From Bacteroidales bacterium (GTDB lineage: Bacteria; Bacteroidota; Bacteroidia; Bacteroidales; Paludibacteraceae), in assembly GCA_012837935.1 (NCBI GenBank), contig DUQG01000045.1, positions 42,989 to 106,988 on the forward strand: DNA of 64,000 nt, written 5' to 3'. The notes under the pieces were generated by a model. The model was not told the DNA's origin, did no database searches, and saw only the letters and a list, made by a program, of their open reading frames with translations. This document shows positions 1 to 56,209 of the stretch, in pieces (position 1 is the stretch's first letter; the number at the start of each line of letters is the position of its first letter). Position numbers and translations under genes: made by a program.

Positions 1-98
1 CGGCTGGCAGGCTTTGAGTTGGCAGCTACTTAGTTTTATTCCTTCGGAATATGGCAGACAGGAATGTCTGCCCCCCCTCAAATGTCTGTCCCCTCAAA

Positions 99-130
99 TA
101 AAAAAACCTTTCTCGTTTATGGGAGAAAGG
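99..130 (-). terminator. intrinsic terminator after small peptide copy 1
   Basis: Minus strand CCTTTCTC-CCATAAAC-GAGAAAGG followed by TTTTTTT. Confidence 0.7.
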
Positions 131-175
131 CTCTATGTTTTAGAATACACACATACATTAACTATATAACCGTTC

Positions 176-241
176 TCACCTTTGATTTTGCACCAAAAGA
201 GTAATGACGAGGACGTTTAAAATAGTGTGTATTGATTTCAT
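176..241 (-). CDS. small hydrophobic peptide, copy 1 (MKSIHTILNVLVITLLVQNQR)
   Basis: Preceded by TATCTTTGC (259-267, minus) and followed by a hairpin plus U-tract. Homologous to copy 2 at 6240-6344 with conservative and synonymous codon differences. Confidence 0.5.
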   Translation of the reverse strand: MKSIHTILNVLVITLLVQNQR

Positions 242-258
242 GCTTTTTAATTTTGCTT

Positions 259-267
259 GCAAAGATA
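259..267 (-). promoter_or_regulatory. Bacteroidetes-type -7 box TATCTTTGC
   Basis: Matches TAnnTTTGC about 18 nt upstream of the small ORF start. Confidence 0.55.
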
Positions 268-421
268 TAGTAAGTTTTTGAATGTGGCAATAGTTTGATA
301 GAAAAAGTTTAAAATAATTACGAATTGCAAGTAAATTCATTGGTTTTTGTTTTTATTCGTAGGAAACGGGCATGTAAATTAAGTAGCTGTTAACCCTAAG
401 TTAACAGCTACTTTTGTTGGA

Positions 422-3400
422 TTATTGTTTGATAAATCTATGTACTGTAGGAGTGTTGTCGGTTCCAATTATTTTTATAAAGTAAGTTCCTGAACTTAAA
501 ACTTCTACATTAAGGGTAGTTGTTCTGTTTTCGGTTTTTGTTGTATTAAGCAAGAGTCCATTAATGCTGTATAGCTCAATAACAACTTCATCGCTATTAT
601 TGCGTTCTATTATTAATGTGTTTTTAACCGGATTAGGATACAGTTGTACAGAGTTTGTTGTCAATTTATCAATTTCGGTCGTGAGTAGACTTATAGGAAT
701 TGTTTGAGCATCATTGTTAACAGTAAACGAACCTGTAAGGTCGGCGTATCCTGATATTGATACTGTATAGTTATAATCACCGTTGGCTAAGTTAATTGTT
801 GCCGTACCTGAAACATCAGTTGTTAATGTATCCTCGTTAATTACAATACTTGCACCTTCAACAGGGTTGTTTTTTGCATCGACAACTGTGAATGTAACGG
901 TATATGTTTGCTGTACGGTAATAGAAGTAGTAACGATTTCGGATACTTCTGAAGCGTAAACCGATTGAACACCTACAGTATGTGTACCGCCGAATATATC
1001 AGGAATTGTGTATTCGGTTGTTGTTACATTTGTAGCTACTTGCACGCCATCAAGATAAATATTATACCCTGTGAGCGTGGCGGATTCACCAACTTTAGCT
1101 CCTCCGATATAGATATCGTCAAGCATAAATATAAACGCATCATCGGATACACAGTTGATAGCCAAGTAAACCTGCTGTCCCGCATAATCGTCTAAGCTAT
1201 AGGTGTGTTGTGTCCATTCGAGGGGAGCTTCAACAAATCTTGAGCCTGTTAAGAAAGTAAAGCTGCCGACATCCGTATTTGTGGTAGAAACGGCTACTTT
1301 GAAACGTTCTAATCCGTTGTCTTCGTCATAAGTTTTTGCCCAGAATGAGAACCGCATTCCGGGAACAACCGTTATTTGGTGCGTAATTAACCAGTCGTTG
1401 TTGGAGCTTCCCAAATTAGGAATTGCAGCAAAGCAAGCTAAATATTTATTCCCGCTGTGTGGGAGTAACTGATTACTTGTTGCGGCAGGTGTGGTAGCCG
1501 ATGGATTAAACACGATATAGGAACCTGTGTATCCTTCGTTCTGGAAATCAAAGGTGCCGGATGAGTATGTTGGTGTATTATCCACGTCAGCCAAAGTATA
1601 GTTGCCGATATTTTCGATGATAAAATCGTCGTAGCTTTCCATATCATCCTCAAAGCTCGGATTCCAAACTACTTTTACTTGATTTCCATTAACCACTTCG
1701 GCTGCTACCTCGAATGGCTTATAAACTTGTGCCTGCAATGTTATATTGATTGGGAGGTCTGCACCCGAAACTACTGCTGTTTCTGACACAGTAGCAAAAT
1801 CAACTTTAGAGATTGTATAAGGGTAGTTGCCGTCTGCAAGCCTAATCGTTGCGACACCCGAAACATTGGTAGTCAAAGATGTTTCGTTTATTGCAATATC
1901 GGCACTTTCAATCGGTTTGTTTTCACTGTCAACAACTGTAAATGTTACGGTGTATCCCAACTCAAAATTAGCTGTAAATGTTACATCGCTATTACCGACA
2001 ACGTAGTTGAATGTTTCAGCTTTTGATACAATTTCGTTGTCGGCATTTGTCCAATTTTTAAGTACATATCCGGTTTTGGGAGTTGCTGTTAATTGAGTTT
2101 CCGTGCCTTCGATATAGCTTCCACCGCCCGTAACGGTTCCGCCAGTATCTGAATTAGCTGCTAAAGTTACCGTGCGTTTTTTGCCGACAACAAACTCATC
2201 AACATATATATTGGTTCCGTAGTCGCTTGTGGCTTGGAGAATTATATAAGAGAAGTTCCCAACAAATCCGGCAGGTACTTCAAAAGCATAATCGTACCAA
2301 CCCATTGCGCTGACTGCAGGAGACAACTCCATATTTCTATGAATAGTGCCTAATTTAGTTGCACCTGTTTTGTTAGGTTTCGTATTGATATATACATCAA
2401 CTTTATCGGCACAGTCGGCATAATTATCGTCTCGATACATCTTAAATCCGACATTGTAAGTCTCACTGCCCATATCTAAACGACGGGAAATAAGCGTGCC
2501 TCGACTGCCTGAACTATTGCTCCAACAATCGTATTTTAACATAGCTTCACCAAACGGGCTGCAAGTAGGATTTACGCCGCTTGCAACTCTTTCCCAAGGC
2601 TCATCATCATCTCCTAAAGTTGACCATCCTGCAGGTGGAAATTCATTGCCGTCGAATGTTTCTTTATATGGAAATGCTGAAATGGTGAAATCAGCACCAA
2701 TACCGGTGATGTTTATACAATGAGTTGTCTCGATGTTATCATTCACTTCTATTGTGGCTGTTTTGTTCCCGATTGTAGTCGGAGTAAAGGCTACACCAAA
2801 ATATTCAACTTCATCGGCACTTAAATTCACCGTGCTTTCAATATTTATCAAAGTAAATTGGTCGGCATCTGTTCCGGTAATTGTAATATCCGAAGGATTG
2901 ATTGTAATTGTTCCGCCACCTGTATTTTGCATAGTGAAAACTTGCAGGGCAGATGATGTTGCAATTTGTGTTGCTGCAAAAGTAAACTCGGTAGGAGTAA
3001 TTTCTAAAACAGGCGGAATAACTTCCAACTGCACTTCAATAGCCATATCTCCGACTACTGTAAATGCTACGTCATTTTTAGGAAGATAACCGGGAGCATT
3101 CACAGAATAGCTGTAGTCGCCGGTAACAGCATATATTACAGCTTTTCCCGAAGAATTGCTTACAGATGTATCAATAACTGTTTCTCCTTGTTTAACGGTT
3201 ACGGTAGCTTCTTTAATGGGATTATTTTCTGTATCAACAACGGTAAAAGTTACAACGGGTAATTTTTCAAAATTACCCGTAAAAGTTACATCGCTGCTAC
3301 CAACAACGTAATTGTATGTTTCTGTTGTGCATACAACTTCGTTATCGGCATTTGTCCAATTTATAAATTTATAGCCCGTATTGGGAGTTGCCGTTAAATT

Positions 3401-6022
3401 AACTTCCGTTCCTGCCAAATAACTTCCTCCGCCTGTAAGTGTGCCGCCTCCGGTTGGATTGGCTATCAATGTTACTGTGTTGGTCTCGCCGATAACAAAC
3501 TCATCAACAAATATATTGTTTCCATACATGCCTGTGGCAACAAGAAAAATATAAGTAGTTGGTTTAGTTACATAATTATATGTGACTGTGGCAGGTATAT
3601 TAAAGGAATAATCATACCAGCCGTCAGCATCGACAGCAGGCTCTAATGTTCTAGGTCTATAAATGGTGCCTATTTTTAGAGCTCCTTTTGAGTTAGATTG
3701 ATAATGGGCATACACATCGACCCTGTCCTTTCTTTGGGAATATGAGAAGTCGCGATACATCTTAAACTTCACGGCATAATTTCCATCGCTCATATCTAAA
3801 CGCCGAGAAGTAAGCGTACCGATACTATATTGACCATAGCTATGGCTATTATATTTTAACATACCTGCTCCAAAAGGTTCACAAGTAGGATTGGTACCGG
3901 TTGTAGCTCTTTCCCATGGATTATCTCCCGAGCTTACCCAACCTAATGGTGGAAACATTTCGTCGTCAAACGATACTATGTATGGAAATTCAGTAACTGT
4001 AAGATCCACTGCACTTCCGGTTACCGATATTTCGTGTATATTTCCAAGATTGTCATTCACTTTTACTGTGGCTGTTTTTTCTCCGGTTGTGGTAGGAGTA
4101 AACATCACGGTAAAGATTGCTGTCTGTCCCGGACCTAAACTCATTGTGTATTCAACATATAAAAAAAACTGGTCGGCATCAGCTCCTGTAATTGTAATAT
4201 CCGAACGATTCATTGAAATTGTTCCTGTTCCAATGTTTTGCATTGTGAAAGTTTGCGGTTCAGATTTTGTTTCAATAGGTCTTTCTGCAAATGTAAAAGA
4301 AGTAGGAGTAATTTCCAGAGTAGGTGGAATACTCTCCATTTCCACATCAACACTCATTTCGCCGTTTATCGAAATCGCTATATCATTCTTAGCTTTATAA
4401 CCAATTTTTTTAACGGAATAGGTATAGTCGCCGGCAGGAACATATATTTCAGCCAGCCCTTCGGAATTGGTTACGGCTGAGTGAACCACGGTTTCTCCTT
4501 GTTTGAAAGTTATTGTAGCACCTTCAAGAGGGGAAGAAGAACCCTGCTCCGTTACGGTAAAGCTGACAGTATTTCTTGGGGTTAAGTCCATTCGCAAACT
4601 TAAACTTCCCCAACCCCGAAACACGTCAAAAGCGGAGGGACTATGCGGATAATTAGCTATACAGAAAAAACCATCGCCATTTTTGTCGTAAGCCATTTGA
4701 ATCCGTTTTTCGGTAGTCTGTTTCACCGCCAAAACATACAATCCGGGTTGAAGCTCTTTGGGACTAACTGCGATATTCATGGTTTGCCCTGCTTGCGATT
4801 GATCGCGGATGTAGGTCTCTGTGGTAAATACGGTTTCTGTAACGTTCATATATGCAGAATTATCCACTTTATACAATGCCAACTGATAGGGAGCCGTAGT
4901 CGCATCGAGTGTATTGGGCCATACGAATTGAACGCCGCTTATGGTCGTTGCGTTTACGATTTGAAAGAGATTGCCGAAAGTCATTATGCTTTCATGTCCA
5001 AATCCTTCTTCTGCAAACACGCCTGTATCTCGAGCGTAAATAAAATCCGTTACCGAAAAATTAAAAACATCGGAATTGTCGGCCGGATCGTAATCTGCGG
5101 CATAGTCGGCAGTATGCGTATAGGTATAATTGCCTGTGGGTAAAGTGGTAGCGTCAAAAGTCGCAGCGGAGGATATTGTTTGCGATGCACCGGCAGATAA
5201 TCCGGCAGATAAAATATCTGTTGAGGTAAAAAGCGTTGTATTGCCGGCGTTTTTGAGTGTTGCAGTTACGTTCACATTTTCGGTAAGTTGTTGCCCTTGG
5301 TTTACAATATTTGTTTTGAGAGTAAAGGCTTTATCTAATTGACTTAAAGGTATCTGCTTATAATCTTTATGCCCTCCTGTAACTTCAAGGTTTGTGGGAG
5401 TCATAGCAAAATCATCTACAATCAGCATAAAAGCGGATCTTGTAATTGCTTGAATAGCCACATAGACCGTCTGACCAATATATTCGCTTAAATCGTAAGC
5501 AAAAGTTTCAACCTTCATGGATGTCGGTCCGACTTTCGAGGCAAGCGTGATGGTAAAATCTTCCTTGTTGTTGCCTGTGGTTGAAAGCAATACATTGAAT
5601 TTGTCCCAACTGCCGGAACTTCCCTGTTTTGCTTTGAATGTGAGGCTACTGCATCCCGCTACAGGATTTAGCGGAGGAGTAATCAGCCAGTCATCGTGTT
5701 CGTGAGAACTACTAGCCTTAATTGCAGCACTTGCATCTCCTGTTATAGGAATATCCGTATATCTCTCCCAAGTTCTGTTCGGACTTCCACCTTCAATAAC
5801 CTTCCATCCGGTGGGAGGAAATACATCTCCTTCAAAACTTTCGTGAAAATACGCTCCAAGTGATGAACTTTTAACTGATTGTTTGGTCTGAAAATCAGAT
5901 TGGTTCGCAGTTCTTTGTTTCTCTGTTTCCTTGCCGGGACGTAATTGTTCAGGAGCTTTCTGTCCCGCCAACCAAGTTGCCGTAAATAACAGCAAAATGA
6001 TTAAATATAAATTTCTTTTCAT
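422..6022 (-). CDS. large T9SS-secreted multidomain protein (choice-of-anchor J-like, Carb-regulatory-like and bacterial-repeat modules; type A sorting domain)
   Basis: 1866 aa ORF with signal peptide and C-terminal 'VQLYPNPVKNTLIIE...GTYFIKI' Por secretion tail. Internal duplicated modules. Confidence 0.85.
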   Translation of the reverse strand: MKRNLYLIILLLFTATWLAGQKAPEQLRPGKETEKQRTANQSDFQTKQSVKSSSLGAYFHESFEGDVFPPTGWKVIEGGSPNRTWERYTDIPITGDASAAIKASSSHEHDDWLITPPLNPVAGCSSLTFKAKQGSSGSWDKFNVLLSTTGNNKEDFTITLASKVGPTSMKVETFAYDLSEYIGQTVYVAIQAITRSAFMLIVDDFAMTPTNLEVTGGHKDYKQIPLSQLDKAFTLKTNIVNQGQQLTENVNVTATLKNAGNTTLFTSTDILSAGLSAGASQTISSAATFDATTLPTGNYTYTHTADYAADYDPADNSDVFNFSVTDFIYARDTGVFAEEGFGHESIMTFGNLFQIVNATTISGVQFVWPNTLDATTAPYQLALYKVDNSAYMNVTETVFTTETYIRDQSQAGQTMNIAVSPKELQPGLYVLAVKQTTEKRIQMAYDKNGDGFFCIANYPHSPSAFDVFRGWGSLSLRMDLTPRNTVSFTVTEQGSSSPLEGATITFKQGETVVHSAVTNSEGLAEIYVPAGDYTYSVKKIGYKAKNDIAISINGEMSVDVEMESIPPTLEITPTSFTFAERPIETKSEPQTFTMQNIGTGTISMNRSDITITGADADQFFLYVEYTMSLGPGQTAIFTVMFTPTTTGEKTATVKVNDNLGNIHEISVTGSAVDLTVTEFPYIVSFDDEMFPPLGWVSSGDNPWERATTGTNPTCEPFGAGMLKYNSHSYGQYSIGTLTSRRLDMSDGNYAVKFKMYRDFSYSQRKDRVDVYAHYQSNSKGALKIGTIYRPRTLEPAVDADGWYDYSFNIPATVTYNYVTKPTTYIFLVATGMYGNNIFVDEFVIGETNTVTLIANPTGGGTLTGGGSYLAGTEVNLTATPNTGYKFINWTNADNEVVCTTETYNYVVGSSDVTFTGNFEKLPVVTFTVVDTENNPIKEATVTVKQGETVIDTSVSNSSGKAVIYAVTGDYSYSVNAPGYLPKNDVAFTVVGDMAIEVQLEVIPPVLEITPTEFTFAATQIATSSALQVFTMQNTGGGTITINPSDITITGTDADQFTLINIESTVNLSADEVEYFGVAFTPTTIGNKTATIEVNDNIETTHCINITGIGADFTISAFPYKETFDGNEFPPAGWSTLGDDDEPWERVASGVNPTCSPFGEAMLKYDCWSNSSGSRGTLISRRLDMGSETYNVGFKMYRDDNYADCADKVDVYINTKPNKTGATKLGTIHRNMELSPAVSAMGWYDYAFEVPAGFVGNFSYIILQATSDYGTNIYVDEFVVGKKRTVTLAANSDTGGTVTGGGSYIEGTETQLTATPKTGYVLKNWTNADNEIVSKAETFNYVVGNSDVTFTANFELGYTVTFTVVDSENKPIESADIAINETSLTTNVSGVATIRLADGNYPYTISKVDFATVSETAVVSGADLPINITLQAQVYKPFEVAAEVVNGNQVKVVWNPSFEDDMESYDDFIIENIGNYTLADVDNTPTYSSGTFDFQNEGYTGSYIVFNPSATTPAATSNQLLPHSGNKYLACFAAIPNLGSSNNDWLITHQITVVPGMRFSFWAKTYDEDNGLERFKVAVSTTNTDVGSFTFLTGSRFVEAPLEWTQHTYSLDDYAGQQVYLAINCVSDDAFIFMLDDIYIGGAKVGESATLTGYNIYLDGVQVATNVTTTEYTIPDIFGGTHTVGVQSVYASEVSEIVTTSITVQQTYTVTFTVVDAKNNPVEGASIVINEDTLTTDVSGTATINLANGDYNYTVSISGYADLTGSFTVNNDAQTIPISLLTTEIDKLTTNSVQLYPNPVKNTLIIERNNSDEVVIELYSINGLLLNTTKTENRTTTLNVEVLSSGTYFIKIIGTDNTPTVHRFIKQ

Positions 6023-6239
6023 GATTTTATTGATTAGTTGATTAATTAGCTGAATAGTTAAATTTTAGTATTTTGAGATTGAAATAACCTTTATCTTCTA
6101 TTGCTGTTTGAATTAAGTAGCAGTTACTTGGTGTTGACATACAGGAAACCTGTCCGACTTTCGGTGGAACTTGTCCGACTTTGACGGATGTTTGTTCCCC
6201 TGAAACAAAACCCCTTTCTCGTTTAAATGGGAAAGGCTT

Positions 6240-6344
6240 TTATACTTTTATAACACACAATAAATTATATAACCATTCATTCTTTTGATTTTCTATCAAA
6301 AGAATAAAGACGATAACGTTTAATATGGTGTGTAGTGAATTCAT
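6240..6344 (-). CDS. small hydrophobic peptide, copy 2 (MNSLHTILNVIVFILLIENQKNEWLYNLLCVIKV)
   Basis: Homologous to copy 1. TATCTTTAC box at 6361-6369 (minus). Confidence 0.5.
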   Translation of the reverse strand: MNSLHTILNVIVFILLIENQKNEWLYNLLCVIKV

Positions 6345-6682
6345 ATTTTTAGTTTTGTTTGTAAAGATACAGTAAGTTTTTAAATATTACAACATGTTTA
6401 ATACAAAATGCTTACATAATTATGATGTAAATAAATTCGTGGTTTTTATGTTATTAGTAGTGGATAAGTTGTTGTAAGGTAGAATGAAACATAAAGTTCG
6501 CATTTTGCCATTTGTGTTTTTAAAACCTTACTTTTATCGTCAATGTTGTGAAGTGAAGAGATTTTTGGTAACTTCAATGTCAGATTTTATAAAACTTTAA
6601 CATTTACTATGTAGCGTTTTGGGATTAAAATCCATCATATATATAGAAGTCATTTTTTATCACACATAAACACACATTAATT

Positions 6683-8192: not shown

Positions 8193-8471
8193 GTTTTACA
8201 GAACACAAATTGCACAAATTACACGGATTTACACAATTTTTTTATCAGGTTTTCTATGCTTCTAATTCTCTAATCCTTTGTATTACATGTTTTCAAAGGA
8301 TTAGTTTTGAATTATTTGATTTGAATGTTTTGAGAACAAATAAGCTGGTTATTTTATCATTATAACATCAACCAAAAAATCCCCCCTTGCGCTGCTCTGA
8401 GCGCAGTCGAAGGATAGTATTTAGGCATTAACATTCAAACTACATATTACTAACTACATACTAATAAAACA

Positions 8472-14623: not shown

Positions 14624-15006
14624 AACGCTTTTATTTGTAATTAATTAAGAGAGAACTCATCTTTACTTTAAAAACTTCCACCGAATATAGGATATTTTAC
14701 ATAACAGTACTAACGTCTAAAAAAAACAAAGAAAACCATTAAGATTTTTAAGAAGTTAAGAAACATTAAGACACTCTTAATGAAAACCTTAACTTCTTAA
14801 TGTTAGAGAACAAAAAACTCTATTTCCATCAGAATGGACAATGGTCGCTCGAACTTATTCGCTTGTTTTACAAGAATTGTTTTTACGTAAAAAGTACGAT
14901 TGTCATTTAATCATATTCGTTTTCGAGGACAAATGAAAATTTGTGCCCCGACAATTATCGGGATTGTGTAATTTGTGCAATTTGTGTTCTATAAATAAAA
15001 CTCAAT

Positions 15007-27929: not shown

Positions 27930-29951
27930 ATGGTAGAATATTATAATAACACATTAGTAGTGGAAGCAAGTTGGCTTGTGGACAATGAAATAATGTCTGA
28001 AAGTCAGTACCGACATGCAACCACACGTAAACAAGTTCAAGTTGTACGGCGGGGATGCCTGAACACTCCGGCTCTTGTTGCTTATGATAGTATGCCTGAC
28101 CGTTTTAAGCGGAAAGTGGTAGAGGTTATCGGTAAAAGTCCGTATGAGGTTATAAAGACCAACTACCTGCAAGAACTTATTGAAGATAGAGCGGATATTT
28201 CGGAGTTTTTTGAAAACTACAAACTGACAAATGGCCGATATATCCCGAAAAACACACGCCACGAGTACTATATCAATGCGATAGTATTGGAGGCAGTACA
28301 TATCATGCTGACCGATAAACGTGCAAGACGTTCGGCACTTGGACATAAAACCACAAAGATATGGGAAAAGATAGCTGAGGCAGTTATGGAACTTGACCGG
28401 ATACGTTTCCCGCACTCATTACCGTCCAATCCGAGACGATTGGAAGATAGATACAAACGGTACCGGAAAGAAGGTGCAGTGAGTTTGATACATAAAAATT
28501 TCACAAATAAAAATGCCGCTTCTGTGGATAGCGAAGTAAAAGAGAGCGTATTGGTAGAAATATTAGCCGCACCAAGTAACCTTGACAATGCACAGGTGGC
28601 TAAATTTTACAATATGGTGGCTGAAAAAGCCGGATGGAAAACAATTACTACCGGAACGGTGGCTAATTTCCGTGAAAAGCACGAAACAATGATATATCCG
28701 GGCAGACGTGGCTCAGTGGCATTTATGAATAAAAAGACAATGCAGGTTAAGCGTTCTGCCCCGAGTGCTCCGCTATACTACTGGACGCTTGACGGTTGGG
28801 ATGTGGAGCTTATGTATCAAAAACACGAAGGCAACCGCACAACCTATCATCACAGACCAACGGTTGTGATAGTATTGGATGCTTTTAATAAATACCCGAT
28901 TGGCTATGCCGTAGGAGATAGAGAAAATCCACAATTAATTCAGATGGCGCTACGCAATGCAGCGAAACATACTGAGGAACTATTCGGCAAAATGTATCGG
29001 ACGCACCAAATTCAGAGCGACCGCTACGCTATCAGCATGATGACACCATTCTACGAAACGCTTGCGGATAAAGTAACTCCGGCACGTGCGAAAAATGCAA
29101 AGGCTAAGATTATCGAACCGTATTTCGGGCACTTGAACAAAACCTATTGTCAAATACAACCAAACTGGAGCGGTTTCGGGATTACTTCAGATGCTGAAAA
29201 ACAACCAAACAGCGAGTTTCTTAATACATATAAAAAGAATTTCCCTGACTTTGATGGTGTATGCAAGCAGGTTGAGTTGATTGTATAGGCAGAGCGTATA
29301 CAAAAGGTTGAGCGACTAATGGAAGCTTGGAATGCAATGGCGGAAGATGACAAAATAGAACTTACCTACCAAAATTATTTATTACAGTTTGGCTCGACTA
29401 CCGGACGACCGATTTTAATGCAACACAACGGACTACTTCCAACAATTGAGGGTGTAAAAAGGACGTATGACTGTTTTGATGTGAATTTTCGCAAGCATAG
29501 CTCTGTAAAATGGAATGTGATGTATGACCCGGACGATATGAGCCGTGCGCTGGCGGTTAATGAGGAGCAAACGCTCCAATTCCTACTCGAAGAGAAATAT
29601 GTCCAACCAATGGCATTAAAAGACAGGAAAGAGGGCGACAGCGAGCAACTGCAACGAGTGAGAGAATTTAACCGGGAACTTATACAAGAAGTAACGGAAT
29701 TTAGAGCCGAAACCGCTGAACAAAGCAGAGGCATATTGGAAATGGTACCGGAACTGGAAACGCTGAAAAAGCTGGCGATAACCGACAGCAAAGGTCAGCA
29801 TAAGAATGAGAGAAACAAGGCTCGGTTAGCCCCACCCCAGCCCTCCCCTCACTGGGAGGGTGATGTCGGACAGGAATGTCCGACCCCCGTAAGAGTGGTT
29901 AATCAAGTGCAGGCTGAAATAACGGAAACATCGTATTTGGATAAATTATAA
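27930..29951 (+). pseudogene. Mu A-like DDE transposase with in-frame TAG at 29286-29288
   Basis: ORFs 27930-29288 and 29319-29951 share one frame. rve-like core 'YYWTLDGWDVELMY', about 670 aa like MuA. Confidence 0.85.
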
Positions 29952-52817: not shown

Positions 52818-55800
52818 ATGGAACCGGTTGAAATAGACATAAGGATGAAACAAAACGTGTCGGAAGAGGGCGAAAAAGCTACCGACTCGATAAACAAGAT
52901 GGATGAAGCCGCTCTTCGTGCAGCTACTGACATAAAAGCTAAAATTAAAGAGCAGAAGTCGATTATTAAGCAAATAGAAAGCGACATAGCATATATACAA
53001 AAGCTATACGATCATGCAGTTGCTGGAAAGGCAAAATTGAGTTTAGGTAATGAACTTGAAACTTTGAAGAAAGCATTAGAGGTAGAAAAGAATGCACTTG
53101 TCGAGCTTGAAAGTAAAGTAGAAACGACCGCTCAAAAGCATGCTAAGCTTCGTACAGAGGTGATGGAAGCGAAGGAAGAGGTTTCGCGATTAGAAATGGC
53201 TGGTAAACGTGGTTCGGAAGAGTGGGATATAGCAATAAATAAGCTGGCTAGTTTGAATGATCAAATGCAGGACACCAACCAGATAGCTAAAACCATTGCC
53301 GATGATGAGAGAATTTTTAAATCCGTTGCTTCCGGTGTATCCGGATTAGCGGGAGCTATGAGTGCTGCGGTAGGTGTAGCTTCTCTATTTGGTGCCGAAC
53401 AAGAAGAATTAACAAAAATACAGACCCGTTTACAGTCGGTAATGGCAATTACTATCGGATTACAACAGGTTGCTGAAACACTTAATAAAGACAGTTACTT
53501 CAGGATTGTTTTACTCTCAAAAGCAAAACGGGGTTGGGCCGCCGCACAAGCTTTTCTGAATACACAGTTAGGTATTGGTGTGGGGCTGTCGAAGGCTTTA
53601 ATGTTTTCAGGTGTAGGATTACTTATAGCCGGAATAGGTTCTTTAATTGTCCTGTATCAAAAATGGTCAAAAAAACAGGAGGAAGAGCTAAAGCTTATTC
53701 AGGAGCGACTCCAAGTACAAGCGCAATTAAAAAGAGAAATCGCTGATAGCTACGCATCGGAAGTCTCAAAAATTGAAGCTGCTCGCGCAGCCTTAAATTC
53801 GGAAAATGTAACACGGGAACAAAAACTGGGGATTATAGATAAGTTAAAAAAACAGATACCCGGTTACACGGCGGAGCTCGACACCGAGGGCAGACTAATA
53901 CGAGAAAACACAGAAGCATACAACGACTATCTTGTTTCACTCGAAAAGTCGCTACTATTAAGAGCCGCAGAAAAAGATTTGGAAAAGCTGTTGGCACAAA
54001 AATACCAACTTCAAAAATTTGAAATAAAGGAAGAGCCAAAACCAATATTTAATGGGTATGAAGTTGATTTAACTTCAGGCAATATACCGGAATGGCAAAA
54101 GAATTTCGATAAAGCAGCAAAAGAAGGAATTGCAGAAATCGATAAAGCTATTGAAAGAATAAAAGACTATATTGCTAACAACTCTTTAATTGACATACCC
54201 AAGCCAACAGGAGGGGAACCTCCTTCTACTATCAAAAAAGAATATGACGCCCAAGCCGAACTTGCCAAGCAACTAACTGATTTGCGGAAACGTATCGCTG
54301 AATTGGAAATAGAAACCATGCAGGAGGGTTTTAAAAAGAAAATAGCACAAATCGACCATGAGGAGGAAACCGAGCTAAAACGGATTGAGGATTATCAGAA
54401 AAAATAGTTGAAACCTACAATAAGGATAAAGATGAAAAGAACAAAGTAAAAGATATAAAAGATATTCCCGGTATCAAACCTGAAACGCTTGCGGAAATAG
54501 AAGCAGAAAAAAGCAAAATATCTGCTGTGGCAGAAGAAAAACGCAAACAAGCGACAGTCAACAACGCCAAAGAGATAGCGGAACTGGCTCGGAAGTATGC
54601 AAGTGAACAAGTAAAAATCGAGCATGATTACCAGCAGGATATTGATAAACTGACCGCTGCCGGAAATCTGGAAGCTGCGAATGCGGCAAAAGCTGAACGA
54701 GATAAACGCATTTCGGAACTAACGGCGGAAATGATTGAAAGCAGCTCTATCTACAAGCTGGCAACCGACGAGAAAATACAAGCATCCAAGAAAGCAACCG
54801 AAGAACTGGTGTCCGACATCAAAAAACGGATAGAACTGCTCGTAAAGGAAAACAAACTGACACGTGAAGCAGCAGACCAGATGCTGAAAGATATTGATAA
54901 AACGCAGGTTTCTCGAGAAAACAGCAAAAACGAAAACAATCCTTTCGCTAAACTACTGAGCGGACTAAATAAGTACAAAGGGGCAAAAAAGGAGCTTGAT
55001 GATAAACGAGGCAGCACATCTGCGGAGGACTTGGTAAAGCTGGAAGACACAGCTAACAAGGCGCTAAAATCCACAGCCGAAGCATCCGCCGAAGCATTGA
55101 TGGGCGTGCAGGCTATTCTCGGCTCGGTAGTTGGTGCGCTTGACCAATTGGGTGCGCTAACCGAAGAGGAAAAACAAACCGCCAACGAAGTGATTGGCAT
55201 GGTAGGCGGAGCAGCAGAGCTGGCGCAAGGTATTGCAACCGGTAACCCAATCGGAATTATTACCGGAGCAGTTAATCTACTTTCAAATGCTATTTCTTTT
55301 TTCGACTTTAAAAGCAAAAAAATTGCCAAACAGCAGAAGGAGCACAAAAAAAACTTGGAGGAGCTAAGCAGAGCGTATAACAATCTACAGCGTGAAGTTG
55401 ATAAGGCTCTCGGTACGGATGTTTACAAAAAACAGAAAGAAGCGATCAATAATCTACAGAAGCAGATAGCCGAAAACGAGCGACTGATTGCACTTGAAAA
55501 TCAGAAAAAGAAAAAGAAACGAGACAAGGAAGCTATTGCCGCATGGAATGCGGAAATTGATGCACTGAAAGGCGAAGTTAACGATACCATTCAGTCCATT
55601 GTCGAGGACTTGGCGCAGACCAACGCCAAAACCTTAGCACAGCAACTGGCGGATGCGCTGGTAGATGCAGCTCGCACCGGAGAAGACGCTTTCACTGCGA
55701 TGGGAGATGTGGTTAATGATGTGCTGCGCAATGCGGTTGTAAATTCACTATCTAAAAAGTTTTTGGAAAAACAGATGGGCGATGCGGTTGAGTACCTTGC

Positions 55801-56209
55801 CGATGCGATGGAAAGTGGTGGTAAGCTGGATGACTACGAAAAGCGCCGATTTGAAGAAATGATTCGCAACGCCGGAAATAATTTCAACACGGCAATGCAA
55901 GCCTACAACGAGCTATTTGCACCGGAAGAAAAAGAGCGTAGTTCCGCTGCCAAAGGAATTGCACAGGCAAGTCAAGACAGCATTGACGAATTAAGCGGTA
56001 CCATTACTTTTATGGCGGGTGAGTTTCGCACTTCCAACGTTCTGGCAGCTGCTCATGCCGAAAGTGCAAAAGATACACAGATTTCTGTACAAGCAATACT
56101 GGCTGTGCTAAATACCATTGCCGAAAATACGGCATACTGTAAAATGTTGGAAGATGTAGCAGAGAGTTTAGATAGAATTAACCGCGACGGCATAAATATT
56201 AAAAAATGA
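52818..56209 (+). pseudogene. tail tape-measure protein split by an apparent frameshift at 54399-54407
   Basis: ORF 52818-54407 continues in the -1 frame as 'IVETYNKDKDEKNKVKDIKDIPGIKPETLAEIEAEKSK...' into ORF 54527-56209. Breakpoint is an A6 run. Confidence 0.7.

Follow-up and report, generated by a model that had tools for sequence, protein, structure and literature searches.

Organization of the locus

The window analysed here is a stretch of 64 000 nucleotides (nt) of contig DUQG01000045.1 (positions 42 989–106 988) from a Bacteroidales bacterium of the Paludibacteraceae. Near its left edge, on the minus strand, two related segments (copy 1, positions 82–362; copy 2, positions 6188–6460) flank a gene on the same strand (422–6022) for a secreted protein of 1866 residues with a type A sorting tail of the type IX secretion system (T9SS) and choice-of-anchor J/D, carboxypeptidase-regulatory-like and InlB-type repeat regions. 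Each segment comprises a Bacteroidota-type promoter, a short 5′ untranslated region (5′UTR), a small open reading frame (ORF) and a hairpin. Together they very probably represent one amino-acid attenuator (copy 1) and a decayed duplicate of the same leader (copy 2). The copies agree at 76% of 287 aligned positions (170 bits), match each other in a genome search with an E value of 6e-38 and also appear in the repeat families D4/D5/D9 of the window. An earlier sequence-only reading had described related minus-strand segments of ∼170 nt at about 99–267 and 6205–6369, each with a TATCTTTGC/TATCTTTAC box, a small ORF and a CCTTTC..GAAAGG hairpin. The relationship is borne out, with 76% identity over about 240–287 nt, and these elements were found where they had been placed, but the true match is longer than had been supposed.

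The gene 3′ of copy 1 is ilvD, on the same strand, whose start (C47:42954) lies 35 nt outside the left edge of the window. It is followed (contig stretch L034) by genes for the acetolactate synthase large and small subunits, a thioesterase-like protein, a small protein and ketol-acid reductoisomerase, where the identities of ilvD, ilvB, ilvN and ilvC are those of NCBIfam equivalogs. Because these genes follow on the same strand, copy 1 is assigned as the leader of the isoleucine/valine operon; the assignment of the whole segment as promoter, leader and attenuator of ilvD-ilvB-ilvN-thioesterase-orf-ilvC is based on the position of ilvD and the identity to copy 2. The thioesterase-like gene (L034:14136–14855) lies inside the operon between ilvN and ilvC, and its frame shares 4 nt with the end of ilvN.

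Architecture of copy 1

The promoter of copy 1 (260–290, minus strand) consists of TTG (290–288), a spacer of 20 nt and TATCTTTG (267–260). The leader ORF (176–241) encodes MKSIHTILNVLVITLLVQNQR, for which orthologous peptides exist; ten of its 21 codons specify Ile, Leu or Val (I/L/V), and ilvD-BN-C lies downstream. Its TGA stop falls inside region 2 (GTGAGAACGGTT, 168–179), the complement of the 5′ arm of the terminator. The last leader codons and the stop, which make up region 2, can pair backward with the codons (hairpin 1:2; core CTTTTGGT/ATCAAAGG, 179–199; −11.0 kcal/mol for the 60-nt 5′ part) or forward with the 5′ arm of the terminator (antiterminator 2:3; −13.9 kcal/mol). The latter fold is more stable than those of 100 out of 100 dinucleotide shuffles. 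The same 5′ arm can alternatively pair with region 4 (3:4; −14.3 kcal/mol), followed by a run of seven T, to form an intrinsic terminator (100–133) whose stem is common to 11/11 leaders of the genus. The helices 1:2, 2:3 and 3:4 share strands, so that 1:2 and 2:3 are mutually exclusive. Copy 1 has the parts of an attenuator in order: regulatory codons ahead of a matching operon, a 1:2 hairpin that overlaps them, a terminator 3′ of the leader ORF and an antiterminator that shares its arm. In anatomy and target it is almost certainly a branched-chain amino-acid attenuator; the details of switching are held with less assurance.

We infer the switching from this anatomy together with the conservation, covariation and gene association described below. 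With charged Leu-, Ile- and Val-tRNA, the ribosome would reach the leader TGA and cover region 2, leaving regions 3 and 4 to form the terminator and keep the ilv operon off. When these charged tRNAs are scarce, the ribosome would stall on Leu, Ile or Val codons in and 5′ of region 1, region 2 would pair with the 5′ arm of the terminator and transcription would proceed. The sequence-only reading had offered a leader peptide with an attenuator for tandem T9SS paralogs as one possibility. It was right in kind for copy 1, but the target is the ilvD-BN-C operon outside the window, and no T9SS gene lies 3′ of copy 1.

The leader family

A third, more diverged copy is present in the same genome, 5′ of leuA-leuC-(GxxExxY)-leuD-...-cimA. 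The leader model R1 gives three clear hits in the genome and no more, with scores of 113.9 bits for the leu leader, 112.0 for the ilv leader and 64.8 for the T9SS copy, which had no part in building the model. Within the genus, the leader occurs 5′ of ilvD in five other species and 5′ of leuA in several. The model matches 67 of 120 genomes in the family and 88 of 295 in the order, which was assigned to Bacteroidales on the strength of the promoter type, the T9SS tail and distant matches; outside the order, no member was found in a class-wide sample of 149 genomes at an E value of 1e-5. Covariance searches, which use sequence and terminator alone, yielded 182 leader loci: 83 lie 5′ of ilvD-family genes (a few of them divergent members of the dehydratase family at 33–37% identity), 87 of leuA, two of ilvB, nine of other or unclear genes and one, copy 2, of a T9SS gene, such that 172 of the 182 adjoin ilvD, leuA or ilvB. 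Of the 171 leaders scanned, 134 have a TAnnTTTG box 5′ of the leader ORF. Pairs of leader matches stand in tandem 5′ of a single ilvD-family gene in several genomes of the order (L167:301–619, L206:301–574, and 2601–2848 in both L182 and L188) and are possibly double attenuators.

Pairing was compared across 170 ilvD and leuA leaders using fixed windows for 2:3 and 3:4. The mean 2:3 energy is about −17 kcal/mol. In 141 leaders the own partner pairs more strongly than the mean of class-swapped partners, the advantage amounting to about 3.2 kcal/mol, and several kinds of standard pair are seen at the majority of 2:3 positions. The antiterminator thus covaries.

The codon content of the leaders follows the downstream pathway. 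Among 166 leaders with an ATG start, I/L/V account for 46% of codons (mean 10.1 per leader). Peptides 5′ of leuA contain on average 4.45 Ile, 4.74 Leu and 0.26 Val, and those 5′ of ilvD contain 3.00, 3.84 and 3.94, respectively. This contrast in Val is independent of the ORF picker, which scores I, L and V equally. The leuA operon of this genome carries cimA, the citramalate synthase of isoleucine synthesis, which would account for the Ile codons of the leuA leader. Leaders of the same build precede other amino-acid operons: MINSAYAYFFYFYFYFSSKSEAVCM and MVLYNKAYYYYYFYFSNKVR, with Phe/Tyr codons, stand 5′ of pheA-like genes (L200, L215, L227), and MIFVTLHHTHHHYLTL, with His codons, stands 5′ of a hisG-like gene (L223). 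In the peptide 5′ of a gene resembling the large subunit of glutamate synthase (L217; MKTKHTSFANKHAYKHNKIVQ), no single residue stands out as a code. Assignments to pheA, hisG and glutamate synthase were made by recognizing protein starts by eye rather than by family search.

Codons that track the pathway in this way point to ribosome-mediated attenuation and would not be expected of a membrane peptide or toxin. Another proposal of the sequence-only reading, a protein-level role as a type I toxin-like or membrane micropeptide, would agree with a short, hydrophobic peptide whose frame is conserved across species. The hydrophobic residues, however, follow the product of the downstream pathway and not hydrophobicity as such, with Val nearly absent 5′ of leuA and replacement by Phe/Tyr 5′ of pheA and by His 5′ of hisG. 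Furthermore, the leader stop codon falls within the antiterminator arm, biosynthesis operons follow the leader at 172/182 loci and PADLOC gave no match; this explanation is barely tenable. A structured riboswitch or protein-binding leader with an incidental small ORF is also very improbable. Conservation of the RNA does extend past the ORF (the GGTTATRTA stretch), but this part is the antiterminator arm, and the codon content shifts from pathway to pathway on a constant RNA architecture. Moreover, no relevant Rfam family matches: at gathering score a tRNA was the sole match in the window, and with E values of up to 10 nothing relevant, Bacteroid-trp (RF01692) included, was found at positions 1–6600. 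Sub-threshold Rfam matches to PyrR and SSRC10 at copy 1 were treated as chance.

Several points weigh against the attenuator reading. Training of the covariance models R1 and R2 used ilv/leu leaders, a choice that biases the searches towards such leaders. The ORF picker rewards I/L/V; shuffled leaders picked in the same way average 2.8 such codons, compared with 10.1. The codon difference between leuA and ilvD leaders (Fisher p of about 9e-77 for pooled codons) pools related species, and its p value overstates their independence. The pairs of the terminator stem are nearly invariant within the genus and show no covariation, so that the case for the terminator rests on its stability and the T run.

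Divergence of copy 2

Copy 2 is identified as a duplicated and decayed leader 5′ of the T9SS gene by homology, its place in the tree and its leader-model score. It is the sister of copy 1 with 98% bootstrap support, on a branch about 2.5 times longer (0.295 versus 0.116), and arose by duplication of the whole copy 1 leader within this lineage. Its promoter remnant (6362–6392, minus strand) retains TTG (6392–6390) and the spacer of 20 nt before TATCTTTA (6369–6362), in which the consensus G of the −7 box is replaced by A, as in nine of 149 boxes. The ORF (6240–6344; MNSLHTILNVIVFILLIENQKNEWLYNLLCVIKV) has lost the ancestral TGA stop (now AAT) and extends to 34 codons, ending 3 nt 5′ of the terminator arm. 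The 1:2 hairpin (6276–6308) is strengthened to 14 pairs (−13.9 kcal/mol) and locks up region 2. The terminator (6213–6236; CCTTTCCCATTTAAACGAGAAAGG) is degenerate. A hairpin is thus present in both copies, as the sequence-only reading had it, but copy 2 has an imperfect one (about −7 kcal/mol for 3:4 versus −14 kcal/mol in copy 1). Among 173 leaders, copy 2 has the weakest terminator and the second-weakest antiterminator. It lacks the strong terminator with a competing antiterminator and also a cognate target, the downstream gene encoding a T9SS-secreted adhesin-like protein.

The differences between the copies had been described as largely synonymous, and thereby as a sign that the peptide is translated. 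The 63-nt shared ORF instead contains 12 differences, ∼3.5 synonymous and ∼8.5 nonsynonymous, and the corresponding dN/dS of ∼0.6, obtained from very few sites, gives no sign of selection on the peptide. Copy 2 does retain an open frame and ten I/L/V codons, as a working leader would, which speaks against decay. In neutral simulations an open frame with at least ten I/L/V codons persisted in 12% of trials, and the comparison of the copies therefore provides no evidence of selection on the peptide. Copy 2 was also considered as a conserved regulator and rejected, as these drift statistics give no support for selection.

A decayed duplicate is the probable explanation of copy 2. With its leader stop and antiterminator gone and little of the terminator left, it would serve as promoter and 5′UTR only, and most likely drives the T9SS gene without amino-acid control. 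Its promoter would be the one that transcribes this gene, and no other TAnnTTTG box was found on the minus strand between 6023 and 6480. The absence of another box also speaks for the alternative that copy 2 still works and subjects the secreted protein to control by amino acids or translation, possibly by an altered logic in which the ribosome at the new stop, 3 nt from the terminator arm, itself blocks the weak terminator. The retained start and I/L/V codons and the near-perfect 1:2 stem are consistent with a working copy, and there is a precedent in Flavobacterium psychrophilum, where an elastase gene and the trp operon are expressed together behind Bacteroid-trp and shared starvation control has been proposed (PMC6414381). 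Set against these are an antiterminator and a terminator among the weakest of the 173 leaders, the fast evolution of the segment, the retention of I/L/V codons by chance in the neutral trials noted above and a T9SS gene that was found only in this genome among those searched; its relatives were limited to partial or short domain matches in 40 related genomes, with none in the genus at the threshold used. A working copy 2 is accordingly unlikely. Still less likely is a rewired copy, in which the attenuator was captured by the giant T9SS gene and the lost stop and locked 1:2 hairpin would constitute a translation-dependent switch.

Other features of the window

A transposable Mu-like prophage occupies positions 27930–63394, with the right-hand limit being a guess. 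Its genes include those for a transposase (phrog_310), a transposition protein (phrog_296), terminase, portal/head, major head and tape-measure-like proteins. At 52818–56209, two adjacent ORFs of 529 and 560 residues cover the initial and final portions of one set of tape-measure-like PHROG profiles (phrog_21917, phrog_28412 and phrog_14295 are common to both) and look as if one long gene had been split. A 30-nt inverted repeat (97%; TTTACAGAACACAAATTGCACAAATTACAC) is present at 8195–8224 and 14966–14995. A similar stretch, TTTGTGTAATTTGTGTTC, recurs elsewhere in the genome (L024), which suggests a dispersed intergenic repeat.

Relation to known attenuators and implications

Leader-peptide attenuators of ilv and leu genes are well known from enterobacteria (ilvL, ivbL and leuL). 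They share with the leaders described here a peptide rich in Leu, Ile and Val, mutually exclusive hairpins and an intrinsic terminator 5′ of ilv/leu genes. The ilvBNC attenuator of Corynebacterium (PMC11857589, PMC10272879) is likewise described as having a Leu/Ile/Val leader peptide, exclusive hairpins and a terminator. The present leaders differ from both groups in having a Bacteroidota promoter and no Rfam leader match, and in that the leuA leaders combine Leu with Ile, with cimA in the operon of this genome. Within the phylum, the Bacteroid-trp RNA (RF01692) is also an amino-acid operon leader for which attenuation has been proposed (PMC2864571; described in PMC6414381), but it belongs to the Trp operon and has its own covariance model, which the present leaders do not match. 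Candidates for leader-peptide attenuation 5′ of amino-acid biosynthesis operons were reported in F. psychrophilum from transcriptome data (PMC9723704). The proposed mechanism and the phylum are the same, but those candidates are from Flavobacteria, whereas the leader model used here is confined to its order in the class-wide sample. No report on ilv/leu leaders of Bacteroidales was found in the literature as far as it was accessible, and the surveys by Lyubetsky (2007) and Lopatovskaya (2010), cited in PMC4833913, may hold earlier predictions. The regulator is thus of a known kind, and attenuation has been proposed before in this phylum, but the RNA family is not in Rfam.

A mysterious-looking repeat is accounted for by a textbook control element. 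The analysis also provides a searchable model, lacking in Rfam, for leader-peptide attenuators of Bacteroidales that would respond to Leu or to Ile/Leu/Val and, by resemblance, to Phe/Tyr and His. The duplicate 5′ of the secreted-protein gene would be an example of a leader carried to a new gene and then decaying there.

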